NCBI RefSeq assembly: GCF_003634045.1 | Contig: NZ_RBIM01000006.1 | Coordinates: forward strand, 124,001 to 188,000 | DNA length: 64,000 nucleotides | Reading direction: 5' to 3' | Origin: Maricaulis maris | Lineage (GTDB): Bacteria; Pseudomonadota; Alphaproteobacteria; Caulobacterales; Maricaulaceae | In this document: one piece after another, positions 28,053 to 46,081 of the stretch | Numbering within the stretch: the first letter of the stretch is position 1 | Layout of the letters: each line of letters opens with the position of its first letter | The notes under the pieces: generated by a model | What the model was told of the DNA's origin: nothing | The model's input: only the letters and a program-made list of their open reading frames with translations | The model's database searches: none | Program-made: the position numbers and the translations under genes

Positions 28053-28181
28053 CCATACATCCCTTGCCGAGAGATAGCCGTATCCGGTTCTTGAGCTCAA
28101 GGGTTTCAACCGCGAAGCGGCGCTACGCGCCCTTGACCTCAAGAACCGGATACGGCCCGCTGGCTGACAAGGGAGGTATGG
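28053..28181. repeat. large nested palindrome, copy 1 (129 bp)
   Basis: Bounded by CCATAC...GTATGG. The inner arms 28077-28103 and 28130-28156 match at 26 of 27 positions, around a 26-nt loop with GCGAAGCGGCG. Outer arms pair CCATACATCCCTTG with CAAGGGAGGTATGG (one mismatch). The same architecture recurs at 39591-39721 and 45951-46081. It lies between convergent genes. Confidence 0.85.
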
Positions 28182-28243
28182 GAAGAGGCATGACCTAACT
28201 ACGCGGCATACCGATAACCGCTAGACGATAGAAGCGATCACTT

Positions 28244-28843
28244 CTAGGGGCGCATTAAACGCGCGCCATCGCGGTCCATCCGCTCGGCACGCTGCGAGAC
28301 GTCAACCACAGCACACCTAACCGGGAAGTACCTACAGATCGTCCCGAGAATGACGCAGACGCCATGCTCAGGATCAATAAGCTTAAACACATGCCCGACA
28401 GATTCTTCAATGATCGCAAAATCACCAATGATTGCTCCTGGGACAACTGGTCCAGCTGAGCAATTGAGCAAAAAATCATCCAACCGTTCGTCAAAATGCT
28501 CGATCGCATTTCGCAATTGACGATCTTTCAATGGATTAGTATCCGAAACTTCGAAGGCATCCCGCAACTTGATTGCTCGAGACTGAGTGTAGTTATCGCG
28601 CCTCGTTGGCCAAAAATACCTAGACACTGACGATGCGTGCGACAGCGCTTCTTGCAAATGCGCCATCGCAACATTCGGGTCGTCAACATTTTCGAGCGCT
28701 GCGTCCAAAGCATCGAACGACATGCGTGCTCGGTTGGCCGAATACAGCAAGCTGCTGATGTAGAAAGCCTCGTACTGGGGAACGATCCCGTCGTATTGTT
28801 GTACGATCAGATCTGCACGCCGCTTTTTCTCCTCCGAGTCCAC
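28244..28843 (-). CDS. hypothetical protein of unknown function (accessory gene)
   Basis: A 199-residue soluble protein with no recognised family. It is mostly helical and charged in the first 110 residues (DSEEKKRRADLIVQQYDGI; IKLRDAFEVSD) and has a C-terminal part rich in Ile, Val and Cys (GVCVILGTICRYFPVRC) of likely beta-strand character. Its base composition is more AT-rich than the neighbours and its codons look less GC-biased, pointing to recent acquisition. It starts 3 bp after the guaA stop on the same strand. Its stop lies in a palindrome TAGAAG-TGATCG-CTTCTA. Confidence 0.7.
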   Translation of the reverse strand: MDSEEKKRRADLIVQQYDGIVPQYEAFYISSLLYSANRARMSFDALDAALENVDDPNVAMAHLQEALSHASSVSRYFWPTRRDNYTQSRAIKLRDAFEVSDTNPLKDRQLRNAIEHFDERLDDFLLNCSAGPVVPGAIIGDFAIIEESVGHVFKLIDPEHGVCVILGTICRYFPVRCAVVDVSQRAERMDRDGARLMRP

Positions 28844-28846
28844 CCC

Positions 28847-30406
28847 CTACTCCCACTCAATCGTCCCCGGCGGCTTGCTGGTCACATCATAGACCACGCG
28901 ATTAACTCCGCGCACTTCATTGATGATCCGTGTCGCAACACGGCCCAGGAAGTCGTGGTCATAGGGGTAGTAGTCGGCCGTCATGCCGTCGACGGAGGTC
29001 ACGGCGCGCAGGGCGAGGACGGCGTCATAGGTGCGTTCATCGCCCATCACGCCGACCGTATTGACTGGCAGCAGGACCGAGAAGGCCTGCCAGATCTCGT
29101 CGTAAAGGCCGGCCTTCTTGATTTCCTCGATATAGATGGCGTCGGCCTTGCGCAGGATGTCGGCCTTTTCCTTGGAGACGGCGCCGGGGATGCGGATGGC
29201 GAGGCCCGGTCCCGGGAAGGGATGACGGCCGACAAAAGCGTCCGGCAGGCCGAGCTCACGGCCCAGCGCGCGGACCTCGTCCTTGAACAGCTCGCGCAGC
29301 GGCTCGACCAGCTTCATCTTCATGCGCGCCGGCAGGCCACCGACATTATGGTGCGACTTGATGGTGACCGAGGGCCCGCCATCAAAGCTGACGCTTTCGA
29401 TCACATCAGGGTAGAGCGTGCCCTGGGCGAGGAAGTCGGCGCCGCCAGCCTCCTTCGCCTTCTCGTCGAAGACATCGATGAACAGGCTGCCGATGATCTT
29501 GCGTTTCTTCTCCGGGTCATCAACGCCTTCCAGTGCCGACAGGAAGAGATCCTCGGCTTCGGCATGGACAAGCGGGATATTGTAATGCTCGCGGAACAGG
29601 GTGACGACCTCATCGGCCTCGCCCTGGCGCATCAAACCGGTATCGACGAAGACACAGACCAGCTGGTCGCCGATGGCTTCGTGCAGCAGCACCGCCGCAA
29701 CTGAGCTGTCGACCCCGCCGGACAGGCCGCACAACACCCGCTTGTCACCAACCTGTTCGCGGATCTTGGCGATCGCCTCATCCTTGAAATTGGCCATCGA
29801 CCAATCCCCGGTCAGACCGGCGATCTGGTGGGTGAAATTGTTGAGCAGAGCCGCCCCACGCGGCGTGTGCACGACTTCCGGGTGGAATTGCACGCCGTAG
29901 AAACGGCGTTCCTCATCGGCGATGGCCGCAAAGGGCGCATGGCCGGACTTGGCAATGACCTTGAAGCCTTCGGGCAACGCCGCGACGCGATCACCATGGC
30001 TCATCCAGACGCGTTCCTCATGACCGATCGGTCCAAAACCGGCAAACAGCGGGCTGTCCTCGATCAGGGTAATATCCGCCCGCCCGAACTCGCGTTCGTC
30101 GGAGGCTTCGACCCGGCCGCCCAGCTGGGCGCACATGGTCTGCTCGCCATAGCAGATGCCCAGCACCGGAATGCCGCGTGTGAAGACGGATGCATCGGCG
30201 CGCGGAGAATTGTCCCAATGGGTGGAATGCGGCGAGCCTGACAGGATGATCGCCTTGGGATCGTAGGCATCGATGAACGCGGCATCGGCGCGGTTATAGG
30301 GGTGGATTTCGCAAAACACGCCGCTTTCGCGGACACGGCGCGCGATGAGCTGGGTCACCTGGCTGCCGAAATCGATGATAAGGAGTTTGTCGTGTTGATC
30401 AGTCAT
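28847..30406 (-). CDS. guaA: GMP synthase (glutamine-hydrolysing)
   Basis: A 519-residue enzyme that converts XMP to GMP. The N-terminal class I glutaminase has the nucleophile Cys85 in GICYGEQ and a His/Glu pair later (GVQFHPEV). The ATP-pyrophosphatase domain carries the P-loop LSGGVDSSV, and the C-terminal dimerisation domain ends KPPGTIEWE, which is diagnostic. The ATG at 30406 (MTDQHDKLL) was chosen over GTG at 30418. guaB, its pathway partner, is 6 kb away on the same strand. Confidence 0.96.
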
Positions 30407-30634
30407 GGGCGTTCGCACCCGCGCGCGCAGGTGTCCCGGAGGTCAGATTGTGGGGAGATGGCAGAAACATCTGTCAGCATGTGGCCCGATAGCGCGAGTC
30501 AGTCCGCTTGACCAGTCCCGGGCGACGCCGGACCTGCGCTTTGGCAGATTTTGCCCGGAAAACCGGCCGGCGGGCTTGAACCGGACCTCAAGCACGCGCA
30601 GGTAAGGCAGGTGCCGCTGCCAAGGAGTGCTGTC

Positions 30635-31222
30635 ATGCGTCTGCCCGCCCTTCTCAGTCTTGTTGCCTTGCTTGCTGCTTGTTCCCAGCCGGTTACCGGC
30701 GCCGACTGGCGGCTCGACAGCGAGGCTTCGCACCTGGGCTTTGTCTCGATCAAATCCGGCGACGTCGCCGAGGCGCATCACTTCACCGGGCTTCGCGGAT
30801 CGGTCGACGGCCAGGGCCGGGCCGAGCTGGTCATTGACCTCGACACGGTCGCGACCGGCATCGATATCCGCAATGAGCGCATGCGTGAGCATTTTTTTGA
30901 AACGGGTGAATTCCCGCAGGCGCGGATCACCACCACGCTCGACCTCGCAGCCTTGGCCGATCTGGACATTGGCGAGCGTCGCCCGCTGACGCTCGAGGCG
31001 GTAATCGACCTGCACGGGGCCTCGGCCAATATACAGGCCGACGTCATGGTCACCGATATTGACGGGCATAATGTGCTTGTTGAAAGCCACGGACCGGTCT
31101 TGTTGCACACGGCTGATTTCGGCCTGACCGACGGTCTCGCGACCTTGCAGGACCTCGCCGGTCTGCCCTCGATCACACCGGTCACACCGGTCACCTTCTC
31201 TCTGGTTTTCACGCGCGGCTGA
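30635..31222 (+). CDS. YceI family lipoprotein
   Basis: A 195-residue protein. A signal peptide (MRLPALLSLVALLAAC) ends in a lipobox LAAC with the lipidated cysteine at residue 16. The mature part is the YceI beta-barrel-like fold (WRLDSEASHLGFVSIKSGDV...; HFFETGEFPQARI), which binds polyprenoid-like lipids. An AGGAG site lies 8 bases before the ATG. The gene is divergent from guaA. The presumed ligand is not known. Confidence 0.87.
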   Translation: MRLPALLSLVALLAACSQPVTGADWRLDSEASHLGFVSIKSGDVAEAHHFTGLRGSVDGQGRAELVIDLDTVATGIDIRNERMREHFFETGEFPQARITTTLDLAALADLDIGERRPLTLEAVIDLHGASANIQADVMVTDIDGHNVLVESHGPVLLHTADFGLTDGLATLQDLAGLPSITPVTPVTFSLVFTRG

Positions 31223-31310
31223 TCATCCCGCTTGGCGAGACACGGTGGCCCGGGTCAATCTTGCGCGAACAACCGGTCGCGCGATGATCGGCCCGCTGAC
31301 CGGAGTTTAA

Positions 31311-32369
31311 ATGCCGACCGCCCGTCCCCACGCCGAGATCATCGAGCTGCAATACCTGCGGGCGATCGCTGTCATGATGGTCGTGGTCGGCCATCTGCAC
31401 CAGGCCGGAAGCCGGTTTCTCGGAGCCGACGGGTTCGGACCCGTCGGGTTTACCGGATTTGCCGGCGTCGACGTGTTCTTCGTCATTTCCGGCTTCATCA
31501 TCCACACGCTCTACCGTCAAGCCGACGGCCCGTCCCTCGCCTTCGGGCTGAAGCGGTTGAACCGGATCTTCCCGCTCTACTGGATTTTCACGGCGCTGGT
31601 CGCCATCGGTTACATGCTGATCGGTGACCAGTTGGGCTTTGCCGATCAGTCCATCGATTGGGTAACCAGCCTGAGCCTGCTGCCTACCGGTCAGCCGCCA
31701 CTCCTGCTGGTCGGCTGGACGCTGACCCATGAGCTCTACTTCTACCTCGTCTACGGGCTTGCGCTCTTCCTGCCACGGCGCTGGAGACTTGCGGCGGCGG
31801 GCCTCTGGGCCGGGCTGACCCTTCTTGCCATGACCGATATTCTGCGCCCCGGCCCGCCTTGGGCAGTACTGGCCCTGAGCGGCTTCAACCTGCAATTTCT
31901 CGCCGGCATCGTGCTGGCGGAGTTCCGCGACCGGCTACCGAGCATGCGCGGTGCGGCAAGCCTGCTCGCCGTGCTGGGCTTTGCACTGGCCGCCGTCTGG
32001 ACCGGACGCTTTGGCATTGAAGGTCTGGCCCACGCGGACACCCGGGCGATGATCTTCGCCCCGCTCGCGATTGGTATCGTCGCTGCAGTTCTGGCCTGGC
32101 AACCACGCTGGCCACGCGGCTTCGCGGCAGTCGGTGACTGGTCCTATGCCATCTATCTCGGCCACCTCTTGGTCATCAGCGTGTTGGCGCGTCTGCTGCC
32201 CGATCTCATCCCCGGCGCACTGTCGGGCCTGCTGGTATTGTATGCGACCGGCCTGACCGGCAGCATCGCGCTCGGGGCACTGGCCCACCGCTGGGTCGAG
32301 CGGCCCTTATTGGTCGCGGGAAAGCAGCTGATCAGCCGCGTCAGTCGGCCCGGACGACCGCGAACCTAG
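31311..32369 (+). CDS. acyltransferase family 3 membrane protein
   Basis: A 352-residue membrane protein of the acyltransferase 3 (OafA/NodX) family with about ten hydrophobic segments. It starts IIELQYLRAIAVMMVVVGHLHQAG with the conserved arginine and histidine, followed by GVDVFFVISGFII, the family hallmark. Such enzymes add acetyl or other acyl groups to exported sugars (O-antigen, capsule). The C-terminal tail is basic. Acceptor unknown. Two sulfotransferase genes lie downstream, so it could act on a surface glycan with them; that is inference. Confidence 0.9.
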   Translation: MPTARPHAEIIELQYLRAIAVMMVVVGHLHQAGSRFLGADGFGPVGFTGFAGVDVFFVISGFIIHTLYRQADGPSLAFGLKRLNRIFPLYWIFTALVAIGYMLIGDQLGFADQSIDWVTSLSLLPTGQPPLLLVGWTLTHELYFYLVYGLALFLPRRWRLAAAGLWAGLTLLAMTDILRPGPPWAVLALSGFNLQFLAGIVLAEFRDRLPSMRGAASLLAVLGFALAAVWTGRFGIEGLAHADTRAMIFAPLAIGIVAAVLAWQPRWPRGFAAVGDWSYAIYLGHLLVISVLARLLPDLIPGALSGLLVLYATGLTGSIALGALAHRWVERPLLVAGKQLISRVSRPGRPRT

Positions 32370-32498
32370 CGACCGACAGACACGGGACTCGGTCAGGTTA
32401 CGCCTGCATGAACTTTCCGTAACACATTGAACTATTGTAACTTATTCCGCAGTCGATCGACTGGTAATCCGTGCTGACAAGTCCTCCCCGGATCGGTC

Positions 32499-33299
32499 AT
32501 GCAGTACGCTGTCGGAAAATCTCCCATCTTCATTGGCGGCGCGCCGCGCTCCGGCACGACCTTGTTGCGCGCCATGGTCAATGCCAGCCGCAATATCGTG
32601 TGCGGCCCGGAAATGCGGATCATCCCGGCGCTATGCCATCTCGCCGAACAGATCGAAACCGGCCAGGCCGACATGCTGGAACGTGGCTATGGCCTCGACC
32701 GGCAGGCCCTCAATGATCGCTTTGCCCGCACCATCGACAGCCTGCTCGCGCCCCTGCACGCCCGCACCGGGGCCCGCGTCGCCGAAAAGACCCCGGCCAA
32801 TATCCTGCACTTTTCCCGCCTGCGGCAGATATTCCCGGACAGTCCGCTGATCGGCATTGTCCGCGATGGTCGCGACGTCGTTGCCTCCCTCCTGTCGATG
32901 GATTGGACTGATGGCAGCACCGGCCAGCCAATGGCGATCACGCGCGATGCCGAAGCGGCCGCCCGCCTGTGGTGCGCCAGCATTGATGCCGGCCGTCGGA
33001 TGCACGGTGATCCGAATTATTTCGAGCTGCGCTATGAGGCACTGGTCAGCGATCCGGCCGGCACGATTTCCCCCTTGTTTGACGCGCTCGGCGAGGACGA
33101 CGCGGCCAAGGCCCGGGCCCTCGATCACGCCCGCGAGTTTGACGCCGCCGCCGGCACGGCTGAATCCAGCGCCGGACGCGTCGCCGGTCCGGTCGACCGC
33201 CGGGCCATCGGACGCTGGCAGCAAGACCTCGACACCGCCCAGCGCGACACGGTGATGCGTATTGCCGGCCAGCATCTGGCTGATTTGGGCTATGTCTGA
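32499..33299 (+). CDS. sulfotransferase family protein
   Basis: A 266-residue PAPS-dependent sulfotransferase. The 5'-phosphosulfate loop is PRSGTTLLR (residues 16-24) and the 3'-phosphate motif is IVRDGRDVVASL (about 120-131). A KTPAN motif precedes it. These enzymes transfer sulfate from PAPS to hydroxyls or amines of sugars, lipids or proteins; the acceptor here is unknown. The ATG lies close after a short AT-rich leader. Its stop overlaps the next gene by 8 bp. Confidence 0.88.
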   Translation: MQYAVGKSPIFIGGAPRSGTTLLRAMVNASRNIVCGPEMRIIPALCHLAEQIETGQADMLERGYGLDRQALNDRFARTIDSLLAPLHARTGARVAEKTPANILHFSRLRQIFPDSPLIGIVRDGRDVVASLLSMDWTDGSTGQPMAITRDAEAAARLWCASIDAGRRMHGDPNYFELRYEALVSDPAGTISPLFDALGEDDAAKARALDHAREFDAAAGTAESSAGRVAGPVDRRAIGRWQQDLDTAQRDTVMRIAGQHLADLGYV

Positions 33300-34140
33300 C
33301 ACGTCCGGCGCAGCGGCGCGCCGCGACGGGGCGGGCCTGATTTTTGCCGGTGGCTGCCCGCGTTCCGGCCTGACCGTGCTGCGCCGCCTGATCGAACCGC
33401 ACCGCCATGTCCATTGCGGTCCCGACACCGGCCTGCCGCCCTCGATCGCCATGCAATGGCAGAATTTCGCCCGTGAGCTGGGGCCGCTGCACGCCCGGGA
33501 TTTCGATCTCGGCGCCGAGGACATGCGCCAATCCATGGCCGAACTCCTGACCGGCATGATCAGCGCACCGTTGGATACACCGGGTGTCGAGGTCCTGGTT
33601 GAAAAGACCAGCCTCAATGTCGCTGCCTTTGATCCACTCGGACGCCTCCTGCCGCAGGCCCGCTTCATCCATGTCGTGCGGGATGGCCGCGATGTCGCCA
33701 ACTCCCTGCTCGCCCGCGACTGGCGCGACCCGCAGGGCCGCCCCTTCCTGCATGTCAGCGATCCGGGCGCGGCGCTGAAATACTGGACCGACCTGACCGG
33801 TATCGGCCTCGCCGCCGAACGCAGCCTGGCAGGCCGTATTTGCCGCGTGCGCTATGAAGATCTGGTGACCCGACCCAAAGCGACCATGACGACTCTGATG
33901 ACCTTCCTCGGCTTCAAGTTCGAACCGGCCCAGCTGCACTTCGCCACGAGACGCATCGAGCTGCACGGGCTGGAACACGACAGCGTGCCGCTGATCAACC
34001 AGCCCCTGACCCGGCGACGGGCGGGCGCGGGTTCGGCGCTGGATGGACAGGTGACCGCGGCAACGCGGCAAAGGCTGACCGAACTCGGATACGGACCGCA
34101 GGCGACCGCCGGCAAACGGCGGCGCAACGGCTGGAGATAG
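33292..34140 (+). CDS. second sulfotransferase family protein
   Basis: A 282-residue relative of the preceding protein. The 5' loop reads PRSGLTVLRRL, with Leu in place of the usual first Thr of SGTT, and the 3' motif VRDGRDVANSL is intact. It starts with MSDTSGAAARRD at 33292, overlapping the first sulfotransferase by 8 bp, so the pair is one operon and may have arisen by duplication. The changed loop may alter PAPS binding or it may simply be tolerated. A basic tail ends the protein. Confidence 0.82.
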   Translation: MSDTSGAAARRDGAGLIFAGGCPRSGLTVLRRLIEPHRHVHCGPDTGLPPSIAMQWQNFARELGPLHARDFDLGAEDMRQSMAELLTGMISAPLDTPGVEVLVEKTSLNVAAFDPLGRLLPQARFIHVVRDGRDVANSLLARDWRDPQGRPFLHVSDPGAALKYWTDLTGIGLAAERSLAGRICRVRYEDLVTRPKATMTTLMTFLGFKFEPAQLHFATRRIELHGLEHDSVPLINQPLTRRRAGAGSALDGQVTAATRQRLTELGYGPQATAGKRRRNGWR

Positions 34141-34343
34141 TTTTCATGGCAGGCGGAGCGGGCTGCGACGACCTTGCCATTTGCTGGCCACAGACCCACC
34201 GCAGAGAGCGCCCCGATGGCCTATTGCGTGTGTGGTGCCCGCGCTCACCGCGGCACTGGGGCTAGCATTCGTCTCGGCCTTCAACCTTCACGCCCATGCC
34301 GACCTGAAAATGCCCTGGTGGGGCGGTATCATTCAGCCGTCCA

Positions 34344-35657
34344 TCACCCCACCCGCTCCATCACGCAGATGTAAAACCCGTCAGTGTCCGTCCGACCCGG
34401 CGAAAGCTGCAGCGCGCCATGTTCGGTGACGCAGGGTTCCAGCAATTCTTCCGCGCCGTCGCCAAGACCGCCAGAGCGGATCAGCACGTCCAGCACCGGC
34501 ACCGGCTTGAATCCCTCGATCTTGTCGAGGAAGGCGTTGACCCGGTCGCCATTTTCTTCCGGCAGGACCGAGCAGGTGATGTAAACGAGGCGGCCGCCCG
34601 GCTTCACATAGCGATGACCGCGTTCCAGCACGATGTCCTGTTCGGCCATGCGCTTTTCCAGCGCCATCGGCTTCAACCGCCATTTGGCGTCGGGACGGCG
34701 GCGCCAGGTGCCGGTTCCGGTACAGGGGGCGTCGCAGAAGACGACATCCATTTTCTCAACAAAGCCGCCCAAGGCCTTGTCTTCGCTATCGTCGTGAACC
34801 TGGACATTGCGCACATCGGCGCGCTTGAGACGCGGCCAGATGGCGCGCAGCCGGCGCCAGTCAATGTCCCAAGCATGGACCTGTCCGGTATTGTGCAGCA
34901 GGGCTGACAGGGCCAGCGTCTTGCCGCCGGCACCGGCGCAATAATCCAGTATCTGCTCGCCTGCACGGGCGCCCGAGGCGAGCGCTGCCAGCTGCGAGCC
35001 GATATCCTGGACCTCGACCCAGCCCTTGCCATAGGCGGGAATGCTCTCGGCCGCCGCCGACTTGCCGCGCGGGTCGCGCTGCGGGATGCGAATACCTGAG
35101 CGCACCAAAGGGCTATTTTCAGCCGCTTTCAGTTTCGACGATACCTCTTTGAAAGCACGATCAAAATCGACCTTTGCTTCATTCACCCTGAGATCGACCG
35201 GAGCCCGTGAAGAGAGCCTCCGCCCCTCTTCCGCCGCCGCCTCACCAAAGGCCCGGATCAGGCTTTCTTCCAGCCATTCCGGCACGTCACCACGGATATG
35301 AAGCGGCGCGTCGGAAATGTCCCGCGCCAAGCCCTCTCGCTCGGCGTCGGTCAGCTTTTCCGGCGCGTGGTCATCACCGTCAAACATGGCGTCAATGGCA
35401 TCGGCCTCGATGCCCCAAACCCGACCGACCGTGCCGATCGCCAGCGTGCGGGGCGCATCACCTTCCATCGCGAAGGCGGTCGAGGACTGGTGACGCAGCG
35501 CGTCGAGCACCAGCCCGCCAATCCAGGCCCGATCACCCGAGCCGGCAAAGCGGTGCGCCTTGCCCCAATCGCGCACGGCATCCTTCACCGGCTGGTGCTG
35601 GGTCTGGAGCGTGTCGAGAATCTCGATGGCCGCGGCAATGCGTGCGCCGTCTCTCAT
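34344..35657 (-). CDS. RsmB/NOP family RNA (cytosine-C5) methyltransferase
   Basis: A 437-residue enzyme. The N-terminal half resembles the NusB-like RNA-binding part of RsmB, and the C-terminal half is the SAM-binding domain with the two Cys motifs: DAPCTGTGTWRRRPD and YITCSVLPEENGDRV. It methylates cytosine in 16S rRNA or a tRNA; RsmB (C967) is the closest known type, but the exact site is unproven. It overlaps the DUF3088 gene upstream by 4 bp (ATGA), the last gene of a three-gene run. Confidence 0.88.
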   Translation of the reverse strand: MRDGARIAAAIEILDTLQTQHQPVKDAVRDWGKAHRFAGSGDRAWIGGLVLDALRHQSSTAFAMEGDAPRTLAIGTVGRVWGIEADAIDAMFDGDDHAPEKLTDAEREGLARDISDAPLHIRGDVPEWLEESLIRAFGEAAAEEGRRLSSRAPVDLRVNEAKVDFDRAFKEVSSKLKAAENSPLVRSGIRIPQRDPRGKSAAAESIPAYGKGWVEVQDIGSQLAALASGARAGEQILDYCAGAGGKTLALSALLHNTGQVHAWDIDWRRLRAIWPRLKRADVRNVQVHDDSEDKALGGFVEKMDVVFCDAPCTGTGTWRRRPDAKWRLKPMALEKRMAEQDIVLERGHRYVKPGGRLVYITCSVLPEENGDRVNAFLDKIEGFKPVPVLDVLIRSGGLGDGAEELLEPCVTEHGALQLSPGRTDTDGFYICVMERVG

Positions 35658-36064
35658 GTCGGATATCCGTCTTGCAGGGGCGCACTCGGGCGCGGTTTAT
35701 TCGGCTGGGCGCCGGTATAGCACGCCGCCAGCTGGCGGCAGATGGCCTTGGGGTCGGTATAGATCCGGCGACCGCCCACGACCGCTTCGGGCTCGACATG
35801 GGCGATCGTGTCGTCGGCCAGGATGAGCGTCGGCGCATTCTGATGGTCCGCGTCCAGCAGCGTCACGATCTCCGCGCGCGGACGGGCATAGTCGATCCGC
35901 ACCAGGGTGATCGCGTCCGCCCAGTGCGGATTGACCTTGAGTGCGCCCTCCATCGTGCAGCAATCGGCGCACAGCCAGGGACCGCCGTCTGCGTCGTCCC
36001 AGGCGCCGGTCAGCAGGAAGAGGATGTCCTGGCCGGTCTCGATCATCGGCTGGTCCTGCCTCAT
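35654..36064 (-). CDS. DUF3088 family protein
   Basis: A 136-residue protein with the DUF3088 pattern: DILFLLTGAWDD, a cysteine-rich loop CADCCTMEGAL, LVRIDYARPRAEIVTLL, then APTLILADD and RRIYTDPKAICRQL. It looks like a thioredoxin-like fold without proven activity; the CxxC is suggestive. The ATG at 36064 overlaps the MAPEG stop (ATGA) and the stop overlaps the start of the methyltransferase, so all three are coupled. Confidence 0.82.
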   Translation of the reverse strand: MRQDQPMIETGQDILFLLTGAWDDADGGPWLCADCCTMEGALKVNPHWADAITLVRIDYARPRAEIVTLLDADHQNAPTLILADDTIAHVEPEAVVGGRRIYTDPKAICRQLAACYTGAQPNKPRPSAPLQDGYPT

Positions 36065-36477
36065 CGCGTGAAGATCCCGACCGCCAGCGTGATCCAAAAG
36101 GCCAGCAGGACGAAGACGCCGGCCGCGAAGCTGTAAAAGCGCCAGCGCAGATTATTGCTGGTGGTATGGATCACCGCATGGATGATGCGCAGCGCCGCCC
36201 AGACCCAGGCCAGCGCCGCGAGGACCGGGCCACCCAGACCCAGCACAAGCGCCAGGATGACACCGACGAAGAACAGGGTCGGCGTTTCCATCTGGTTCTG
36301 GAAGGCGTTGGAGACCTGCTGAACCTTGCGCGGCCAGGCGCGCTGGCCGAGCACGATATCGGCCGGCTTGACCTTTCCGGACCCGACCGCGCCGGTGCGC
36401 ATCAACGCATTGGCGAACAGCAGGACAAAGGTCAGGGCGACTTGCACCAGAAGCGGATAAATCAAAGCGTCAGACAT
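36061..36477 (-). CDS. MAPEG family membrane protein
   Basis: A 138-residue membrane protein with four hydrophobic segments and the MAPEG signature N-F-x-x-Q-x-E-T-P (NAFQNQMETPTLFFVGV). MAPEG proteins include glutathione transferases, but bacterial members of this kind lack proven substrates. The start at 36477 (MSDALIYPLLVQVALTF) was chosen at the beginning of the first membrane segment. First gene of a run with DUF3088 and the RNA methyltransferase. guaB ends 119 bp upstream on the same strand. Confidence 0.85.
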   Translation of the reverse strand: MSDALIYPLLVQVALTFVLLFANALMRTGAVGSGKVKPADIVLGQRAWPRKVQQVSNAFQNQMETPTLFFVGVILALVLGLGGPVLAALAWVWAALRIIHAVIHTTSNNLRWRFYSFAAGVFVLLAFWITLAVGIFTR

Positions 36478-36507
36478 CAGGCTTCCCCTTGGAAAAATGG
36501 ATGGAAA

Positions 36508-36596: not shown

Positions 36597-38210
<1,614 letters not shown>

Positions 38211-38239
38211 CTATCCGCTCGAGTTGTGGGGGCAATCAT

Positions 38240-39562
38240 ATGGAAGACATCGACGGGTTTGACGCCAAAGGCGAGCGAGCACGACTATTTCCTGTATTGG
38301 CCGACAGCTCGAAGGAAGGCCGCACGCTTTCAATTGTTCTGGCCACCTTGGCACAGGTTCCCGAGTTTGCCGCCAGTGTATTGAACGCGATCAATCGACG
38401 TCATGGCACTCGCACGAAAGTCGAATGCTTTACGGAAGTAACCTTCGCCAAGCGCGGCGGAGAGAAGCTCCGCCCGGACGGCCTGATAGTCGTCAGCACC
38501 GGTCGGACAAAATGGTCGGCGTTTGTCGAGGCCAAGATTGGAAATGCCGCGCTGCGCCAAGATCAGATCGAAGCCTATCTAAGGCTCGCAAAAGACGTTG
38601 GTGTCGATGCCGTCATAACAATGACCAATGATTTTGCACCACTGCCCGAACACCATCCGCTCGACGTTGACCGGCGTTTGTTGAGAAAAGTCAGCCTGCT
38701 GCACTTCTCCTGGTTCTCAATGCTCACCACCATCAACTTGTTGGCACTGAACGATGATGTCGCTGATGCAGACCATGCTTATCTACTTCGCGAATTAGAG
38801 CGCTTCCTCATTCACCCAAGCGCGGGCCTCAGACGTTTCGATAGCATGGGGACCGAGTGGACCGACGTGCTTGACCGGCTGCGCGCAGGAACGAACCTTC
38901 CAAAGAATTCACCTGAGGTGCTCGGCGTCGTTGCTAGCTGGCATAGTGAACTGAGGGACCTTTGCCTCTTATTGGCAAGGAAGACGGGAGCTTCCGCAGA
39001 CCTCAAGCTTTCGCCGAAACATCGATCTGACCCCCGTGACCGTATTCAGTTTGATGCTGACCTCTTGTCGCGATCAAAATTACTGCGTGGAACAATCTTG
39101 GTGCCCGACGCTGCGGCGGCAATCGAAATTGAAGCCGACCTGAGCACGCGGACCATTCGCACCTCAATGAAACTTGAGGCGCCAAAGGATAAGGCTCAGC
39201 AAAAATCAAGGGTGAACTGGCTCCTGCGGCAGCTTAAAGATTGCGAGGCGGACAAGGTCACGGTGATGGCCAACTGGCCCGGCACGGCACCACAAACGAC
39301 ATCGACCGTCGCCGCTGCCCGCGATGATGATCGAATACATGCTCATTCGAACAGGGCGATTGTTCCCGGCTCATTCGTCGTCATGAAACTGATGACCGAT
39401 GGACGACGGTTCGCAGGCCGCAAAACATTCATCGAAAGCCTCGAGCAGCTCGTTGTGGATGACTTCTACGGCGACGTTGCTCAAAGGCTCACGGCTTGGC
39501 GCGCGCCCCCGCCTAAGCTCCGCAGCGCCGTTGAAGACACGGATGACGGCGAGGACACCTAG
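38240..39562 (+). CDS. PD-(D/E)XK-nuclease-like protein of unknown function
   Basis: A 440-residue soluble protein. Around residues 78-110 it has the core of a PD-(D/E)XK nuclease: RPDGLIVV (Asp80), then FVEAKIG (Glu97, Lys99), then RQDQIEAYL. The rest (helical middle, C-terminal beta-rich region with a charged tail) gives no known domain. It is less GC-rich than its neighbours and stands alone, with a large palindromic repeat just after its end, so it looks acquired. It may be a defence or repair enzyme; the function is not shown by the sequence. The ATG at 38240 was preferred to the frame opening at 38159. Confidence 0.65.
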   Translation: MEDIDGFDAKGERARLFPVLADSSKEGRTLSIVLATLAQVPEFAASVLNAINRRHGTRTKVECFTEVTFAKRGGEKLRPDGLIVVSTGRTKWSAFVEAKIGNAALRQDQIEAYLRLAKDVGVDAVITMTNDFAPLPEHHPLDVDRRLLRKVSLLHFSWFSMLTTINLLALNDDVADADHAYLLRELERFLIHPSAGLRRFDSMGTEWTDVLDRLRAGTNLPKNSPEVLGVVASWHSELRDLCLLLARKTGASADLKLSPKHRSDPRDRIQFDADLLSRSKLLRGTILVPDAAAAIEIEADLSTRTIRTSMKLEAPKDKAQQKSRVNWLLRQLKDCEADKVTVMANWPGTAPQTTSTVAAARDDDRIHAHSNRAIVPGSFVVMKLMTDGRRFAGRKTFIESLEQLVVDDFYGDVAQRLTAWRAPPPKLRSAVEDTDDGEDT

Positions 39563-39590
39563 TTCACCAGCGCACCCAGCGCAAATCTCG

Positions 39591-39721
39591 CCATACTTTA
39601 CTTGCCAGCCAGCAGGCCGCAGTGACTTCGCGCCGTCAAGGCCGCCTTCGGCGCCGCGTAGCGGGCATGCGCCTTGACGGCGCGAAGTCACTGCGGCGAA
39701 ATCTCTGCAAGGAAAGAATGG
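39591..39721. repeat. large nested palindrome, copy 2 (131 bp, reverse orientation)
   Basis: Bounded by CCATAC...GAATGG. The inner arms 39617-39642 and 39671-39696 are a perfect 26-bp inverted repeat around a 28-nt loop. The reverse complement of the loop matches the loop of 45951-46081 at 23 of 28 positions, and the reverse of its left outer end (CCTGCTGGCTGGCAAG) matches the right outer ends of the other copies. The inner stem differs from the other copies. Confidence 0.85.
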
Positions 39722-39770
39722 GGCGGTCAGCGCGCCGCGCCAGCCCTCACAAGGGCGGCCGCCCCCCGCC

Positions 39771-40484
39771 CTAACGCAACCAGGCAAAGGCCCGCGTCAA
39801 AAACGCCTGCGCATCGTCCCGCACCGGCTCACCATGCGCAAACAGGACGGTTCTGGCCGGCCAGGCGAAGATGCGGTCGATGGCGGCGCGCGCCCGCTTC
39901 CGGTCGCGGAAGGCGAGACGGAATTTGCCCGGGACGGCGGGCTCCGGCCCGGTCATCCGGTCCCAGCGCGCGACCCAGCTTCGCCAGCCGGAATACCAGT
40001 CATCCGGCAGGTGCTGGATCAGGTCGGTGAAGATCACCGTGCCGCTGGACCGATGATAGAAGACGACTTCGGTGGTGATCCTGTTGCCGGGCACGACGAC
40101 CTGGTCGATCTGTCCGGCCCAGGCCGGATCTGCGGTGTCGGTCAATTCGGTGTCGAATTTCAGATCCGGGAGTTGGGCCGCCATGCCCGGCGCGCCGTGC
40201 AGGCGGGCGGCGGGATAGGCGGACTGCCAGTCGGACAGGGCGAGATGGTGCAGGCTGTTGGGCGCCACGATATGGGCGACCAGGCCGAGCGCGTCGATCT
40301 CGCGCTTGCGGGCTTCGTTCAGCGCCACCGGCGACCACACCCAGAGCCGGTCATCATCGAGGCGGATAACCACCATCCGCGTGGGGTAGTGAAATCCCGC
40401 TGCGGCTGTGACGACGTCGCCGGACGCGGTCCAGATCCCGTCTGACAGGCACCGCAAGGTCGAATTGTCCGTTGTTGCGGCCAT
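39771..40484 (-). CDS. DUF4336 family protein
   Basis: A 237-residue protein with the DUF4336 pattern: DGIWTASGDV, FHYPTRMVVIRLDDDRLWVWSPVAL, VAPNSLHHLAL and the HLPDDWYSGW region, followed by LFAHGEPVRDDA. The family looks like a metallo-beta-lactamase-derived fold that lacks most metal ligands, although several His and Asp residues remain. Function is unknown. It is convergent with the PD-(D/E)XK gene, the repeat lying between them. Confidence 0.8.
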   Translation of the reverse strand: MAATTDNSTLRCLSDGIWTASGDVVTAAAGFHYPTRMVVIRLDDDRLWVWSPVALNEARKREIDALGLVAHIVAPNSLHHLALSDWQSAYPAARLHGAPGMAAQLPDLKFDTELTDTADPAWAGQIDQVVVPGNRITTEVVFYHRSSGTVIFTDLIQHLPDDWYSGWRSWVARWDRMTGPEPAVPGKFRLAFRDRKRARAAIDRIFAWPARTVLFAHGEPVRDDAQAFLTRAFAWLR

Positions 40485-40664
40485 GTGGTCACGCTAGGCA
40501 CCGGGCGGCCTGCGGGCAAGCTGCCGCGAACACACGCCCGGTTGCCGCCCTAATACGGCCCGCAAATAACCTTCCCGCCTCCCCGCTATCGCCTTGCGCG
40601 AGCGCTGCAGTAACAGCGCGCCGGGTGAGGCTGGCGCGTAACATCGGCCAATGGGGAGGCCCGC

Positions 40665-41081
40665 ATGCGCAAGCGCTTTCGCAAACGCGATGACCAGGCA
40701 GAGGTCAACATGACCCCGATGCTGGATATCGTCTTCATCCTGCTGATTTTCTTCATCGTCACCGCCACTTTCCTGTCCGAGGAGGGCGTCGATATGCGTC
40801 CACCGCCGGAATGCGAAGGCGCCGGGTGCGATGCGCCGGACCGACCGGTCATCCTGATCCAGGTCGATGGCGACAACCAGGTCTTCGTCAACCAGGACCG
40901 GACCGATATCGAACGGGTCCTGGCATCCATCAACCGCCATCGCGCCGAAAACCCGGAAAGTGCCGTCTTGCTGGAAGTCCATGACGAGAGCGATCACGGT
41001 GTCGTGGTCCGGATCTGGGATGAGATGAGCGCCAATGGCGTACCGGTGTCGATTCAGCGGACGGAGCCGGCGGCAGGCTGA
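40665..41081 (+). CDS. ExbD/TolR family protein
   Basis: A 138-residue protein with one membrane segment at about residues 15-35 (NMTPMLDIVFILLIFFIVTA), the typical ExbD signature whose aspartate carries protons, and a periplasmic domain. It normally works with an ExbB/TolQ partner to energise outer-membrane processes. Here it stands alone: no exbB, tolQ or tonB gene is adjacent. GGGGAGG precedes the ATG. The periplasmic part has an unusual Cys-rich short loop (PPPECEGAGCDAPD). Confidence 0.9.
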   Translation: MRKRFRKRDDQAEVNMTPMLDIVFILLIFFIVTATFLSEEGVDMRPPPECEGAGCDAPDRPVILIQVDGDNQVFVNQDRTDIERVLASINRHRAENPESAVLLEVHDESDHGVVVRIWDEMSANGVPVSIQRTEPAAG

Positions 41082-41179
41082 CCACGCCCATGCCCACACA
41101 CAATCTGTGGGTTTGAGGCGACCAAATTTTAACGCCGCCACGCTAGAAGACGTCGTCATCGCTATAGTTGGGGAGCGAT

Positions 41180-43231
41180 ATGCGCGTCTTTACCTGCCTG
41201 TTCACGGAACACAATCTCTGGCTTGTCCTGCTGGCGGCTGCCATGTGCGCCACCGGCTCGGTCGTGACCATGCATCTCTATCGCCGCGGCCTGAGCACGC
41301 GCGGTGCCGAGAAGTCCGGCTGGCTGTTCCTGACGGCGGTCTGCGCTGGCTCCTCGATCTGGGCGACCCATTTCATTGCCATGCTGGGTTTTCAACCCGG
41401 CGTTCCGGTGACGTTTGACGCCACGCTGACCCTCGTCTCCATGATCCTGGCGATTGCCGGCACCGGCGCCGGCCTCGCCTTGTCCGGCATGCGATTCAGC
41501 CGCCATGCCCCGGCCATCGGCGGCTGTGTGTTCGGTCTCGCCATCGCCGCGATGCACTTCACCGGCATGTTCGCTTATCGCGTCGATGGTCTGGTCGATT
41601 GGGATCAGGCCTATGTCACCGCCTCGATCGGGCTCGCGGCCGGCCTGGCTGGGATGGCCTTCTGGGCAGTTGAGCGCTGGAAGAACGGGCCAGCGGTTTT
41701 CATCGCACCGGGCATCCTTGTTGTCGCGATTGTCGCCCTGCATTTCACGGGCATGGCAGCCTTCGTCGTCACGCCGATTGCCGGCATGGAAGTGGGCGCC
41801 GACAGTGCCGCCTTCCGGGCCATGGCATTGTCTGTCGCCGTGGCCGGGATGGTGATCATCGGGACTGGCGTCACCAGCTATCTGATCGATCACCGCACCC
41901 GCGAGGAAAGCGACGAACAATTGCGCCACATGGCGCTGCATGACCCGCTGACCGGCCTCGCCAACCGCACCAGTTTCAACACCTATCTGGACGCCCGCCT
42001 CGCCAGCCCCGACGCGGACGGCGTGGCCGTGGTCGGAATCGACCTCAATCGGTTCAAGGAAATCAACGATGTCTGGGGACATGAGGCCGGCGATGCCGTG
42101 CTCTGCGCCCTCGCCGAACGGCTCAAGGGCCTGGCCGGCCAGACCCATTTTGCGGCCCGTCTGGGCGGCGACGAATTTTGCGTCGTGCTGAACGCGGAAA
42201 ACCGCATTGCCCTCCAGGAGCGCGTCGACACCATTGAGCAGATGTTCGCGACGCCGGTGAGCTATGGCGAATACGAGTCCGCCACGGGTGCGAGCATCGG
42301 CGTCGCGGTCTTCCCGCATGATGGCGCTGATCGCGACAGCCTGGTCCGCAATGCCGACCTGGCCATGTACAAGGCCAAGATGGATCCGATGCTGGACGTC
42401 TGCTTTTACGACACCGAACTCGGCGACGAGGTTCGCGAACGTCGCGCCATGGCCAATGATCTGCGCCATGCGATCGAGAATGACCAGTTGCACGTCCATT
42501 ATCAGGTCCAGACATCGATCGGGACCGGCGAAATCCGCGGTTATGAGGCGTTGCTCCGCTGGACCCATCCGCGCCTCGGCGCGATCGGCCCCGACACCTT
42601 CATCCCGCTGGCCGAGGCCAACGGGCTGATCCTGCCACTAGGTGAATGGGTCATGCGACAGGCCTGCCGGGACGCGGCGTCCTGGGACAATGATCACAAG
42701 GTCGCGGTCAACCTGTCGGCCGTGCAGCTGACCCATTCGGGCCTCGCCCGCCAGATCCAGCAAATCCTGCTGGAAACCGGCCTGCCGGTGAAGCGCCTGG
42801 AAATCGAGCTGACGGAAACAGCGCTGATCAAGGACAAGGTGCAATCCATGCATATCATGCGTCAGATCAAGGCGCTGGGCGTGTCCGTGGCACTGGATGA
42901 TTTTGGCACCGGCTATTCCTCGCTCGACATCCTGCGCACCTTCCCCTTCGACAAGATCAAGCTCGACAAGTCCTTCACCGGCGAGCTGGAAAGCGACCAT
43001 CGCTCGCTGGCCGTGGTGCGTGCCATCCTGGCGCTGGCCAAGAGCCTGGGAATTCCGGTCCTTGCAGAGGGCATCGAAACGATGACGCAGCTCGACCTGC
43101 TGCGCGACGAGGCCTGCGACGAAGGTCAGGGCTTCTTCCTGGGACGCCCGGCGCCGATGGATATCCTGGCCGAGACACCGGCATCAGACATCGTGCTGGC
43201 GGATGCCGTGCCCAAGAGCGGTACGGCGTAG
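41180..43231 (+). CDS. MHYT-GGDEF-EAL c-di-GMP signalling protein
   Basis: A 683-residue membrane protein. The MHYT sensor (about residues 1-240) has seven hydrophobic segments and His/Met motifs THFIAM, MHFTGM and LHFTGM that may bind copper or another ligand. The GGDEF domain has an intact active site GGDEF at 329-333. The EAL domain begins with EALLRW at 456-461 and has the DDFGTG motif. Both synthesis and breakdown of cyclic di-GMP are therefore possible; which dominates cannot be told. The ATG at 41180 follows GGGGAG. Confidence 0.93.
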   Translation: MRVFTCLFTEHNLWLVLLAAAMCATGSVVTMHLYRRGLSTRGAEKSGWLFLTAVCAGSSIWATHFIAMLGFQPGVPVTFDATLTLVSMILAIAGTGAGLALSGMRFSRHAPAIGGCVFGLAIAAMHFTGMFAYRVDGLVDWDQAYVTASIGLAAGLAGMAFWAVERWKNGPAVFIAPGILVVAIVALHFTGMAAFVVTPIAGMEVGADSAAFRAMALSVAVAGMVIIGTGVTSYLIDHRTREESDEQLRHMALHDPLTGLANRTSFNTYLDARLASPDADGVAVVGIDLNRFKEINDVWGHEAGDAVLCALAERLKGLAGQTHFAARLGGDEFCVVLNAENRIALQERVDTIEQMFATPVSYGEYESATGASIGVAVFPHDGADRDSLVRNADLAMYKAKMDPMLDVCFYDTELGDEVRERRAMANDLRHAIENDQLHVHYQVQTSIGTGEIRGYEALLRWTHPRLGAIGPDTFIPLAEANGLILPLGEWVMRQACRDAASWDNDHKVAVNLSAVQLTHSGLARQIQQILLETGLPVKRLEIELTETALIKDKVQSMHIMRQIKALGVSVALDDFGTGYSSLDILRTFPFDKIKLDKSFTGELESDHRSLAVVRAILALAKSLGIPVLAEGIETMTQLDLLRDEACDEGQGFFLGRPAPMDILAETPASDIVLADAVPKSGTA

Positions 43232-43272
43232 ACGTACACGATCGCTAATCGTCAGTGGCGTCGCTGGCGCCC

Positions 43273-44103
43273 CTACCGCTTGAACCCCATTGCCACCACA
43301 AAGGTCTCCGCACTTTCCGAACGGCTGGCGTCGGGCTTGAAGTGGCGGACTTTCTCGAAATTGGCTTTCAGGAAGTTCAGCAATTCGCCGTCCGATCCAC
43401 CCTGGAAAACCTTGGCAATGAAAAAGCCGCCAGGCGTAAGGGTTTCGGCGGCGAAATGCGCGGCGAGCTCCGCAAGGGCAACGATGCGCAAATGGTCGGT
43501 GCTCTTGTGGCCGGTCGTCCACGGCGCGAGATCGGAGATCACGGCGTCGGCGGCGCCGCCCATCTCCGCCTTGACCAGAGCCGGCGCGTCATCATCGGTG
43601 AAGTCTTTTTCCAGCAGGGTCGCGCCGGCAATCGCCTCGATTTCCAGCAAGTCGATACCGACAACTTCCGAGGCGCCCGCCTTCAGCGCCACCTGCACCC
43701 AGCCGCCCGGCGCCGAGCCGAGATCGACCACGCGCATGCCGGGCTTGAGCAGTTTGAAACGCTCGTCCAGCTGCAGCAGCTTGTAGGCGGCGCGCGAGCG
43801 ATAGCCCTCCATCTGGGCTTTCTTGACATAAGGATCATTGAGCTGGCGCTGCAGCCAGCGGGTCGAGGAGGTCTTGCGGCCGCGCGCCGTCTTGACCCGT
43901 TCAAACATCTGCTTGGCAGCCCGGGCGTCGCCGCCCTTCTTCATCGGACCGGACTGGCGACGACGGCGTTTGTCACTACTGCCCCAGCCGGGAAGTTCAG
44001 CATTGCTGTCGGCATCGCGGCCCTCGCCGTCAGCCTCGTCCTTGCCGCCCTGATCCTTGGGCGGGGTCGGCTCGTCCGGCGGTGTCTTGTCGTCGTCGCT
44101 CAT
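43273..44103 (-). CDS. rlmE: 23S rRNA (uridine-2'-O)-methyltransferase RlmE
   Basis: A 276-residue FtsJ-type enzyme that 2'-O-methylates U2552 of 23S rRNA. The SAM-binding motif is VVDLGSAPGGWVQVAL; the K-D-K-E catalytic residues are represented by YKLLQLDE, SDLAPWTTG, FFIAKVFQGG and SAETFVVAMGF. An N-terminal extension of about 60 Asp/Lys/Gly-rich residues precedes the core, unlike the short E. coli enzyme. It overlaps the ppx/gppA start by 4 bp (ATGA). Confidence 0.92.
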   Translation of the reverse strand: MSDDDKTPPDEPTPPKDQGGKDEADGEGRDADSNAELPGWGSSDKRRRRQSGPMKKGGDARAAKQMFERVKTARGRKTSSTRWLQRQLNDPYVKKAQMEGYRSRAAYKLLQLDERFKLLKPGMRVVDLGSAPGGWVQVALKAGASEVVGIDLLEIEAIAGATLLEKDFTDDDAPALVKAEMGGAADAVISDLAPWTTGHKSTDHLRIVALAELAAHFAAETLTPGGFFIAKVFQGGSDGELLNFLKANFEKVRHFKPDASRSESAETFVVAMGFKR

Positions 44104-45230
44104 TCGTCCGATCCCGTGGTCTGCGTCGCCGGGGTTGTGCTCTCGCCCTTGCGGCGACGGCGCCTGCGCTTCTTGGACTTTCGCATCAGATTGAGCAACA
44201 TGCCTTCGCGCAAGCCCCGATCGCCCACACGCAAGCGTTCGGCCGGCCAGAGTTCCGCGACGGCCTCATAGATCGCGCAGCCAGCAAGGACGAGCTCGGC
44301 CCGGTCAGTCCCGATGGTCGGCTCCTGGGCACGTCCATGAATGTCCAGCTCACGCAGGCGCTTGCAGGCGTCCAACGCCTCCTCGCCGGTCATCCACAAC
44401 CCATCCACCTTGGAGCGGTCATAGCGTGGCAGACGCAAATGGACACCGGCCATCGAGGTGACCGTTCCCGACGTTCCCACCAGATGGGCCCGACCTTCGC
44501 GGAACAGCGGCCGCATCGCCTTGGCACCGCGCGGCGTCTTCATCAGGTCGCGGGCATAGGCCTTCATCTCGGCATACCATTCAGCACGATCGCCCTCGCG
44601 TTCGGGAAAGCGCTCCGACAGGGTGACCACGCCGACCGGTGTCGAGGTCCAGGATTTCATCGGCGGACGGCCGCCGCTTTCGCGGCCGCCACGGCGTCGC
44701 CATTCGGCGAGGTCGACCCAGGACAGCTCGGTCGAACCGCCCCCGATATCGATGACCAGGGCCGCTTCCTTGTCCTCGTCGAGCAAGTCGACACAGCCAT
44801 GCACGGCCAGTCGCGCCTCTTCCTCGGCAGAGATGAGATCAAAGGTCAGCCCGGTCTCGCGCTCGACCCGGTCGAGAAAGTCCTGGCCATTGACCGCCAT
44901 GCGGCAGGCCTGGGTGGCGATGGAGCGATGCTTGACCACATTCTGGCGCCGGATCTTGTCGGCACAGACTTTCAGCGCTTCGACGGCCCGGTCCATGGCG
45001 CCCTCGGAAAGCGCACCACTGCCGGTTATCCCCTCACCGAGGCGGACAACGCGCGAGAAGGCGTCGACAACATGAAAACTGCTGCCCGAGCGCTGCGCCA
45101 GGAGCATGCGGCAATTATTGGTACCCAGATCAATCGCGCCGTACACGGGAGATGGCGCGCGTTTGCGCCCTCTCCGCTTGCGTGCGGCGGCGTCCTTGCC
45201 CGGAGAGCCCCGGGACGATGGCTCCGCCAT
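44100..45230 (-). CDS. Ppx/GppA family exopolyphosphatase/phosphatase
   Basis: A 376-residue phosphatase with the actin-like fold. The N-terminal phosphate motif is GAIDLGTNNCRMLLA (about residues 30-44), and VIDIGGGSTELSW (about 155) is the second. It hydrolyses polyphosphate or pppGpp; the sequence does not decide which. The ATG at 45230 (MAEPSSRG) was chosen over an upstream frame to 45320. The last 20 residues are lysine/arginine-rich. rlmE follows by overlap, so the two form an operon. Confidence 0.87.
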   Translation of the reverse strand: MAEPSSRGSPGKDAAARKRRGRKRAPSPVYGAIDLGTNNCRMLLAQRSGSSFHVVDAFSRVVRLGEGITGSGALSEGAMDRAVEALKVCADKIRRQNVVKHRSIATQACRMAVNGQDFLDRVERETGLTFDLISAEEEARLAVHGCVDLLDEDKEAALVIDIGGGSTELSWVDLAEWRRRGGRESGGRPPMKSWTSTPVGVVTLSERFPEREGDRAEWYAEMKAYARDLMKTPRGAKAMRPLFREGRAHLVGTSGTVTSMAGVHLRLPRYDRSKVDGLWMTGEEALDACKRLRELDIHGRAQEPTIGTDRAELVLAGCAIYEAVAELWPAERLRVGDRGLREGMLLNLMRKSKKRRRRRRKGESTTPATQTTGSDE

Positions 45231-45451
45231 GATATACCTCTTGCCGACCGGCGCGCCGCATCCGGGATCGGGAGGCGCGGCTCGAATCGGGCTGATCACA
45301 ATGTTGGTTGCAGGATACAAGGAAGCGACGGCCCTGCAAGGATGCGTGACCGATGGCAGCGCAGGCCGTAGCTTATTGCTCGAAACACCCTAAATATGGG
45401 CTGCCGCGCGAGGATGGTCCGCGCCGGCAGATTTGTGTCAGAGTGTTGAGC

Positions 45452-45787
45452 ATGATCGTTCGCGACGCCAAATTCGGACTCGGCGATGTGGTACGCCACC
45501 GCCTTTTCCCCTTCCGCGGGGTGGTGGTCGATGTTGATCCCGAGTTCGCCAATACCGAGGAATGGTACGAGTCCATCCCGGAAGATGTCCGCCCGTCCAA
45601 GGACCAGCCCTTCTACCATCTGCTGGCCGAGAATGATGAGAGCTATTACGGCGCCTACGTGTCCGAGGGCAATCTCCTGCCCGACGCCGAGAATGGCCCG
45701 GTCGAACATCCGCAGATTTCCGAGGCCTTCGAGGGCTTTGACGGCACCCGCTACCAGCTGAAAATGACGCCGGACCAGGCGCACTAG
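45452..45787 (+). CDS. hspQ: heat shock protein HspQ (YccV-like)
   Basis: A 111-residue protein of the HspQ/YccV hemimethylated-DNA-binding-like family. Recognisable blocks are AKFGLGDVVRHRLFPFRGVVVDVDPEFAN, DQPFYHLLAEN and YGAYVSEGNLL. In E. coli HspQ is a Lon substrate-specificity factor and heat-shock protein. The ATG at 45452 starts the family homology (MIVRDAKFGLG); the open frame runs back to 45353. The 3' end faces the FAH-family gene across the repeat. Confidence 0.92.
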   Translation: MIVRDAKFGLGDVVRHRLFPFRGVVVDVDPEFANTEEWYESIPEDVRPSKDQPFYHLLAENDESYYGAYVSEGNLLPDAENGPVEHPQISEAFEGFDGTRYQLKMTPDQAH

Positions 45788-45950
45788 GTCATCACCCATC
45801 CGAGGACCGACGCGCCTCGGCCTCGTTTTCCCTCCAGCCCGGCCATCCCCATCGACCGGCTGGACAAGGTCCCCCCTGACAAGCCGAGGGATGACGGGGA
45901 TTTGAGGATATGGCTGGTAAAAGAAAGGCTGGCGCAGCGCGCCCACCGAG

Positions 45951-46081
45951 CCATAATTCCCTTGCCGAGAGAAAGCCGTATCCGGTTCTTGAACTCAAGG
46001 GGCATGCCCGCGAAGCGGCGCCTGCGGCGCCCTTGACCTCAAGAAGCGGATACGGCCCGCTGGCTGTCATGGGATTTATGG
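45951..46081. repeat. large nested palindrome, copy 3 (131 bp)
   Basis: Bounded by CCATAA...TTATGG. The inner arms 45975-46001 and 46030-46056 match at 24 of 27 positions. The 28-nt loop at 46002-46029 begins GCATGCCCGCG. The outer arms CCATAATTCCC and GGGATTTATGG also pair. It shares the inner stem with copy 1 and the loop with copy 2. GCGCAGCGCGCC occurs on both sides and may be a third, outermost stem or a repeat of the flank. Confidence 0.85.

Follow-up and report, generated by a model that had tools for sequence, protein, structure and literature searches.

Nested palindromes with jointly changing arms and a conserved tip: a dispersed, possibly mobile DNA family in Maricaulis

Three nested palindromes lie in a 64-kb stretch of the Maricaulis maris genome (G000), the whole of which is called the window here and supplies the coordinates of these elements. 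They measure 129, 131, and 131 bp (copies 1 to 3), each is bounded by CCAT at its start and ATGG at its end, and all three sit between convergent open reading frames (ORFs). We propose, with about an even chance of being right, that all three belong to a DNA element that is dispersed, non-coding, and mobile-like, its arms being kept alike by template switching during replication and its spread being due to some protein that recognises the fold. The features in the window were as follows.

28053..28181, plus strand: copy 1, nested palindrome from CCAT to ATGG; outer arms 28053-28066 and 28168-28181
28077..28156, plus strand: copy 1, inner stem-loop; 27-nt arms 28077-28103 and 28130-28156, with one C.C mismatch by the TCAAGG core
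39591..39721, minus strand: copy 2, nested palindrome; its canonical orientation is the minus strand
39616..39697, minus strand: copy 2, inner stem-loop; perfect 27-bp stem that differs in sequence from those of copies 1 and 3
39570..39582, no strand: small GC hairpin outside copy 2, low-coordinate side; read from the sequence, flank hairpins being tested at family level
39729..39742, no strand: small GC hairpin outside copy 2, high-coordinate side; same basis
45951..46081, plus strand: copy 3, nested palindrome; the query used to draw the family
45975..46056, plus strand: copy 3, inner stem-loop; arms 45975-46001 and 46030-46056
45931..45943, no strand: small GC hairpin outside copy 3, low-coordinate side; from the sequence, the flank-hairpin test, and the terminator scan
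46089..46101, no strand: small GC hairpin outside copy 3, high-coordinate side; from the sequence and the flank-hairpin test

Re-examination of the sequence bore out the initial annotation as to the elements, their ends and lengths, the sharing of loops, and the differences between stems. The inner stem is common to copies 1 and 3 with few mismatches, as is GCGAAGCGGCG, and both carry the C.C mismatch beside the core that is found in many copies of the family. When copy 2 is reversed and compared by eye with copy 3, the stems differ at 12 of 27 positions and the loops at 5 of 28; the copy 2 28-nt loop on a perfect 27-bp inner stem forms the longest perfect hairpin in the window at the settings used. 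Once the small GC hairpin beyond each end is counted, the complete element spans ∼178 bp.

With copy 3 as the query, BLAST returned 70 matches in the 3.57-Mb genome, both strands counted, and copy 2 returned five. A covariance model (R1) gave 114 matches on both strands, i.e., 58 distinct places, three of which are short forms and one of which is cut by an assembly gap; because R1 scored 150 of 2621 first-look candidates, there are possibly more. Forty-one of 43 copies, picked by sequence similarity and not by pairing, were aligned in one orientation (two were dropped for runs of N). That the three palindromes belong to a genuine family and are not chance, as had been proposed, is borne out both by the 58 places and by stem pairing in the 41 copies, which exceeded that of 500 of 500 column shuffles. 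The plan opens on a small GC hairpin followed by the outer arm CCATAAATCNCTTG, the asymmetric CCGAGAGANN, and a 27-nt inner arm ending in TCAAGGG, and continues with a tip containing two small hairpins, the returning inner arm, CCGCTGGCTGA, the returning outer arm, and a second small hairpin. The conserved tip reads TCAAGG-(CCGC NNN GCGG)(CGC...GCG)-CCTTGA. Flank hairpins with a stem of at least 4 were present in 33 of 41 copies on the 5' side and in 31 of 41 on the 3' side, as compared to 14.7 and 11.2 in shuffled flanks.

Of all cells in this alignment, 92.5% were paired, as compared to 82.5% in the shuffles and 33–42% with slid structures, and cells changed on both sides numbered 163 versus 47 in the shuffles, so the covariation first noticed in three copies is true of the family. 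Inner-stem cells were paired in 98.0% of cases and outer-arm cells in 86%. A larger set of 118 Maricaulis elements, found by similarity or R1 and then by a scan demanding 12 of 20 pairs, had Watson-Crick pairing at 2199 of 2242 stem pairs, the rest being 6 G.T, 9 A.C, 27 other mismatches, and one N. In 116 of the 118 the distance between the core and the base of the stem was exactly 20 nt, loops were 27–31 nt long, and 66 distinct arm sequences were present: conservation extends to the scaffold, the tip, and the length of the stem, the sequence of which is much freer. The core-adjacent pair was C.C in 54 elements, G.G in 38, and G-C in 26, a split that fits an inner part lying in either orientation within the same outer arms.

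The flanks of the G000 elements match flanks in other Maricaulis genomes at 75–94% identity, many of them on both sides. Orthologous comparisons were picked by both flanks, with no pairing asked of the ortholog, and 34 were obtained; three were set aside, two as repeats of the same element (L033, L045) and one as a false pairing through a flank repeat (L011/L156, with 11 single changes). Besides 31 double changes that keep Watson-Crick pairing, the 31 comparisons that remained held 28 single changes, 3 doubles of other kinds, and 1 gap, as compared to the ∼3.9 doubles expected from independent arms over the same comparisons by the formula of the ortholog count. The arms change together far above independence, and the earlier suggestion that one arm is copied onto the other gains support from this excess. 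The loop, moreover, flips in place: the inner part aligned best when inverted in 3 of 31 comparisons, two of them clear (L044/L176 and L028/L166) and one weaker, with 70% identity (L026/L076).

A site outside this set, C1:481385, carries three different stems in three species, G000, G016, and G010, each with 20 of 20 pairs. The stems differ from one another by 5, 5, and 3 double changes and by no single change, the loops of G010 and G016 are reverse complements of each other except for one base, and the stems share no more than 12 of 20 bases with any other arm in the 118-element set. In genomes G015 and G017 the element is absent from this site and a different palindrome is present instead, GGGGACAGGT..AATTA..TAATT..ACCTGTCCCC (L308 in G015, L306 in G017), at which the two species differ by matched changes in both arms. 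Because the replacement palindrome also differs in this way, coupling of the arms may be general in the genus Maricaulis.

Copy number differs widely between species, and many sites are common to several of them. Matches to the core model on both strands numbered 59, 47, 36, 28, 26, 26, 20, 10, 7, 6, 6, 3, 3, 3, 2, 1, 0, 0, and 0 in 19 Maricaulis genomes, two of which are just 65 and 69% complete; the 59 in G000 correspond to 55 places. Five elements read in G003 (L298, L299) share the stem type GCCAGACTGGACTTGTCTCG and its variants, unlike those of G000, and two more copies in that genome (L057, L075) carry different stems.

Taken as a whole, the family appears to record, in nature, the copying of one arm of a hairpin onto its partner. 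While a strand is single during replication the element would fold, and the polymerase could switch template from one arm to the other; a change would then be copied from arm to arm, at times with the loop inverted, and the sequence would drift yet stay self-complementary. Copying that depends on the fold would explain joint changes of any base type, the inversion of loops, and the lack of wobble steps. Template switching is reported to homogenise the arms of inverted repeats and to invert the spacer (PMC8604942), and both outcomes are those observed in the Maricaulis elements; an account of quasipalindrome template switching in E. coli also exists (PMC7202029). Arm homogenisation and spacer inversion, the two marks of that process, are both present here, and import of whole hairpins is its main rival. 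The frozen stem length, the conserved tip, and the spread in copy number are not explained by arm copying alone and suggest recognition and spread: the fixed geometry and the tip may be what a protein recognises in folded DNA, and that protein may have spread the element within genomes and across phyla, these being the steps of which we are least certain. Copies decay by loss of the inner stem.

Several observations weigh against this reading. Single-arm changes at orthologous sites (28) were as common as doubles, and one ortholog (L181) is decaying, with one arm broken; even so, neither a scarcity of further copies nor non-compensatory stem change, either of which would have overturned the initial annotation, was encountered. 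The 12-of-20 demand overstates pairing in the 118-element set, the stem-length result leans on copies found by a fixed-length model, and recent common ancestry alone accounts for some of the conservation of stems within G000. Neither a target-site duplication nor a clean filled/empty pair with exact ends was found at the sites compared; at the best of these, C1:481385, the "empty" species hold a different palindrome, and because many sites are common to several species, recent movement is not demonstrated. Copies in Acidobacteriota, described below, have bulged stems, and no spreading enzyme was found.

The competing explanation that survives best is ectopic gene conversion, in which inner hairpins would be wholly replaced through recombination with other copies and the double changes would be imports. 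The copies are similar enough for recombination, one stem type is dominant in G000 and another is common to five G003 copies, and elements flank rearranged or inserted DNA. We nonetheless consider it unlikely: the stems at C1:481385 are perfect despite their poor match to other arms (among the 118 fetched elements, which are not every copy), new perfect stems must still originate somewhere, and inversion of the loop alone, with the orientation of the outer arms unchanged (L044 vs. L176), is no plain import.

Selection on a transcribed RNA structure, be it a terminator, a 3'-end protector, or a structured RNA, appears somewhat less probable again. The structure is strongly conserved and a terminator-like small hairpin lies next to copy 3. 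There is also a mild excess of convergent-gene settings, with 18 of 43 classifiable copies versus 8 of 38 background gaps (p = 0.04; 9 of 52 copies were unclassified, and genes were called only roughly, with a simple codon-score script). However, 25 of the 43 lie elsewhere, so that the convergent ends described for the three window copies, correct for these, are not a rule of the family. Wobble is not favoured as would be expected of RNA, because G.T pairs are no commoner than A.C, and other mismatches exceed both. No Rfam 15 family matched the window above its gathering threshold (sub-threshold microRNA models occurred at copy 3 only). The idea that the elements act as terminators fared poorly: no intrinsic terminator (GC stem plus T tract) was found inside the three CCAT-ATGG elements, copies 1 and 2 had no terminator-like site, and copy 3 had two, the first of which falls in the small flanking hairpin and the second beyond the element.

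A role in chromosome organisation, as a terminus-biased binding site under selection, we regard as improbable. Density in G000 is uneven (6.1 elements per 100 kb on contig C7, 0.4 on C4), and few of the copies listed fall in the quarter around the origin, namely 2 of 39 in G016 and 1 of 22 in G010, both complete genomes, with dnaA at ∼1.2 kb. But several Maricaulis relatives have 0–3 matches, which is impossible for an essential site, and a free stem sequence speaks against ordinary binding of double-stranded DNA; a role at the chromosomal terminus is unproven. Pairs of G000 copies within 6 kb of each other numbered 13 versus 8.2 expected with contig counts held (P 0.03), and 8 of the 13 ran in the same direction.

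Finally, a REP/BIME/REPIN-like element moved by a Y1 (RAYT) transposase, a mobile REP/BIME-like element having been one option in the initial annotation, is very improbable in spite of the dispersed palindromes, their varying copy number, and the presence of Y1_Tnp in 5 of 19 Maricaulis genomes (G010, G003, G005, G009, G012), since Y1_Tnp is absent from five of the seven genomes with at least 20 core matches (G000, for which this explanation was rejected on that ground, and G006, G015, G016, and G017), the element is several times the length of a REP, and the G016 copies listed (34) show no clear strand preference (14 plus and 9 minus in the first half, 7 and 4 in the second, tallied by hand with the terminus assumed near 1.45 Mb). 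With the family, its covariation, and the copying of one arm onto the other supported, and with terminators, RAYT-moved REP/BIME elements, and a convergent-end rule not supported, the interpretation given in the initial annotation is partly upheld.

Beyond Maricaulis, R1 matched none of 18 genomes from other genera in the family and 4 of 24 from other families of the same order; when 289 Alphaproteobacteria were sampled evenly, at least 3 genomes matched at E 1e-5, M. maris itself included, a lower bound as 18 candidates were scored per genome. The tip, written as a pattern of 25 fixed bases of which the arms are not part, occurred in 70 stretches in a collection of 84,980 species, 39 of them from Maricaulis and 31 from others. 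By title, 17 of the 31 are Acidobacteriota, and the remainder include Bradyrhizobium, Blastochloris, Hyphomicrobiales, Hyphomonadaceae, an alphaproteobacterial metagenome-assembled genome, Oribacterium, a Lachnospiraceae bacterium, Ca. Crickella, and Inhella; the pattern is thus found in Acidobacteriota, other Alphaproteobacteria, and Clostridia. Full 10-nt arms are present in 29 of the distant matches. Pairing covers at least 5 of the 10 positions in 27 of these, where chance predicts 8%, and at least 7 in 20, where it predicts 0.35%, although the 31 stretches are not all independent (the Oribacterium elements, for example, are near-identical) and many are metagenome bins. The arms of two, L094 (Inhella) and L145, do not pair, and the Inhella genome gave no match. 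An alignment of 26 sequences, the rows of which were chosen by the tip pattern or R1, contained all four Watson-Crick types in the arms with G.U nearly absent. Three distant genomes with multiple copies repeat the plan on their own scaffolds, with mean arm identities between copies of 0.66 (G072, 6 copies read), 0.41 (G073, 8), and 0.59 (G077, 7) and Watson-Crick pairs at 76 of 84, 100 of 112, and 88 of 98 positions, respectively. In the genome of Edaphobacter aggregans (L254), one tip hairpin is enclosed in a TGTCAAGG...CCTTGACA palindrome of greater size, forming a distinct kind of nested element. Neither phages and plasmids (blastn with copy 3) nor viral contigs (exact tip pattern) gave a match, and no enzyme was common to the surroundings of the distant copies among ten neighbouring proteins. 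We put forward only tentatively, as a possibility we rather doubt, that these form a mobile DNA class of a new sort, in which the fold and the tip are recognised rather than the sequence of the arms, and which is spread in Alphaproteobacteria, Acidobacteriota, and Clostridia by an enzyme not yet known, with arms kept identical by arm copying.

Dispersed palindromes and miniature inverted-repeat transposable elements (MITEs) are known kinds. REP, BIME, and REPIN-RAYT systems (PMC3733652, PMC3116915, PMC8266576) resemble the Maricaulis family in being dispersed, high-copy palindromes, probably spread in trans. A REP, however, is a 20–40 bp palindrome tagged GTAG or CGTC (PMC3733652), whereas the Maricaulis element is nested and ∼178 bp long, its consensus ends lack either tag, its stems vary freely between copies while the tip is the conserved part, and G000 has no Y1 transposase. 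The CIRs of Caulobacter and Brucella (PMC2229807, PMC10969869) are likewise long (∼110 bp) intergenic repeats of Alphaproteobacteria with inverted-repeat arms. By those descriptions, CIRs have conserved GANTC (CcrM) sites in a terminal loop and two arms joined by a linker, whereas the Maricaulis plan has one nested axis and any GANTC occurs in just 6 of 118 elements; identity with CIRs was rejected on this near-absence. Quasipalindrome correction (PMC7202029, PMC8604942) and the coding palindromes of Nematomorpha (PMC6649704) share identical arms, spacer inversion, and drifting perfect palindromes with our family, but those cases are mutational processes or palindromes in mitochondrial genes, and here the features appear in a bacterial element that is dispersed, has a fixed geometry, and carries a tip found across phyla. 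MITEs (ERIC, Correia/NEMIS, YPAL, RPE; PMC2229807) are also small, with inverted repeats and no mobility genes of their own, and terminal inverted repeats of this type are present in the outer arms CCATAAATCNCTTG / CAAGNGATTTATGG. In Maricaulis, however, outer and inner stems nest, the arms are hypervariable, and no target duplication or parent transposase was found. The BLAST and model matches are whole or inner-deleted elements, with no dedicated search for half-elements flanking a gene. No description of the tip or the family, or of fixed-length arms of free sequence under a cross-phylum tip, was found in the open-access literature searched, though one may exist elsewhere.

These dozens of natural orthologous palindromes make arm copying and loop inversion directly readable, so that template switching could be weighed quantitatively against selection in a wild genome. 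Should an enzyme indeed spread the elements, they would represent a novel mode of mobile-DNA recognition, one based on the geometry of a hairpin and on a short tip while the arms are free in sequence, and a tip of 25 fixed bases common to several phyla makes the idea testable.

Individual sites also differed in form. Short forms without the inner stem occur at G000:C7:3885 and at the copy 1 site in G015, and their junctions suggest deletion between short repeats. At the copy 2 site, G015 retains the outer hairpin alone, and G016, G012, and G013 have junctions without the element. Between two copies at G000:C7:213390-215266 (L002, L003) lies ∼1.9 kb with a 328-aa ORF that has no Pfam match, and at this site G010 and G017 have a single element with contiguous flanks; a cassette-like arrangement (element-gene-element) was considered, but other close pairs did not fit it. 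In the copy 3 ortholog of G016 (L282), an insert of ∼4.4 kb with a 1034-aa ORF sits at the left end of the element, and GGTGACAGGCACC-type inverted sequences lie near the ends of the insert. At the copy 1 site the element is complete in G016, both small hairpins included, while in G000 and G017 ATGG is followed directly by other DNA. A 199-aa ORF without a Pfam match lies at window positions 28244-28843 in G000, between copy 1 and the GMP synthase gene; G017 aligns across this stretch, and G016 lacks it and keeps the complete element.

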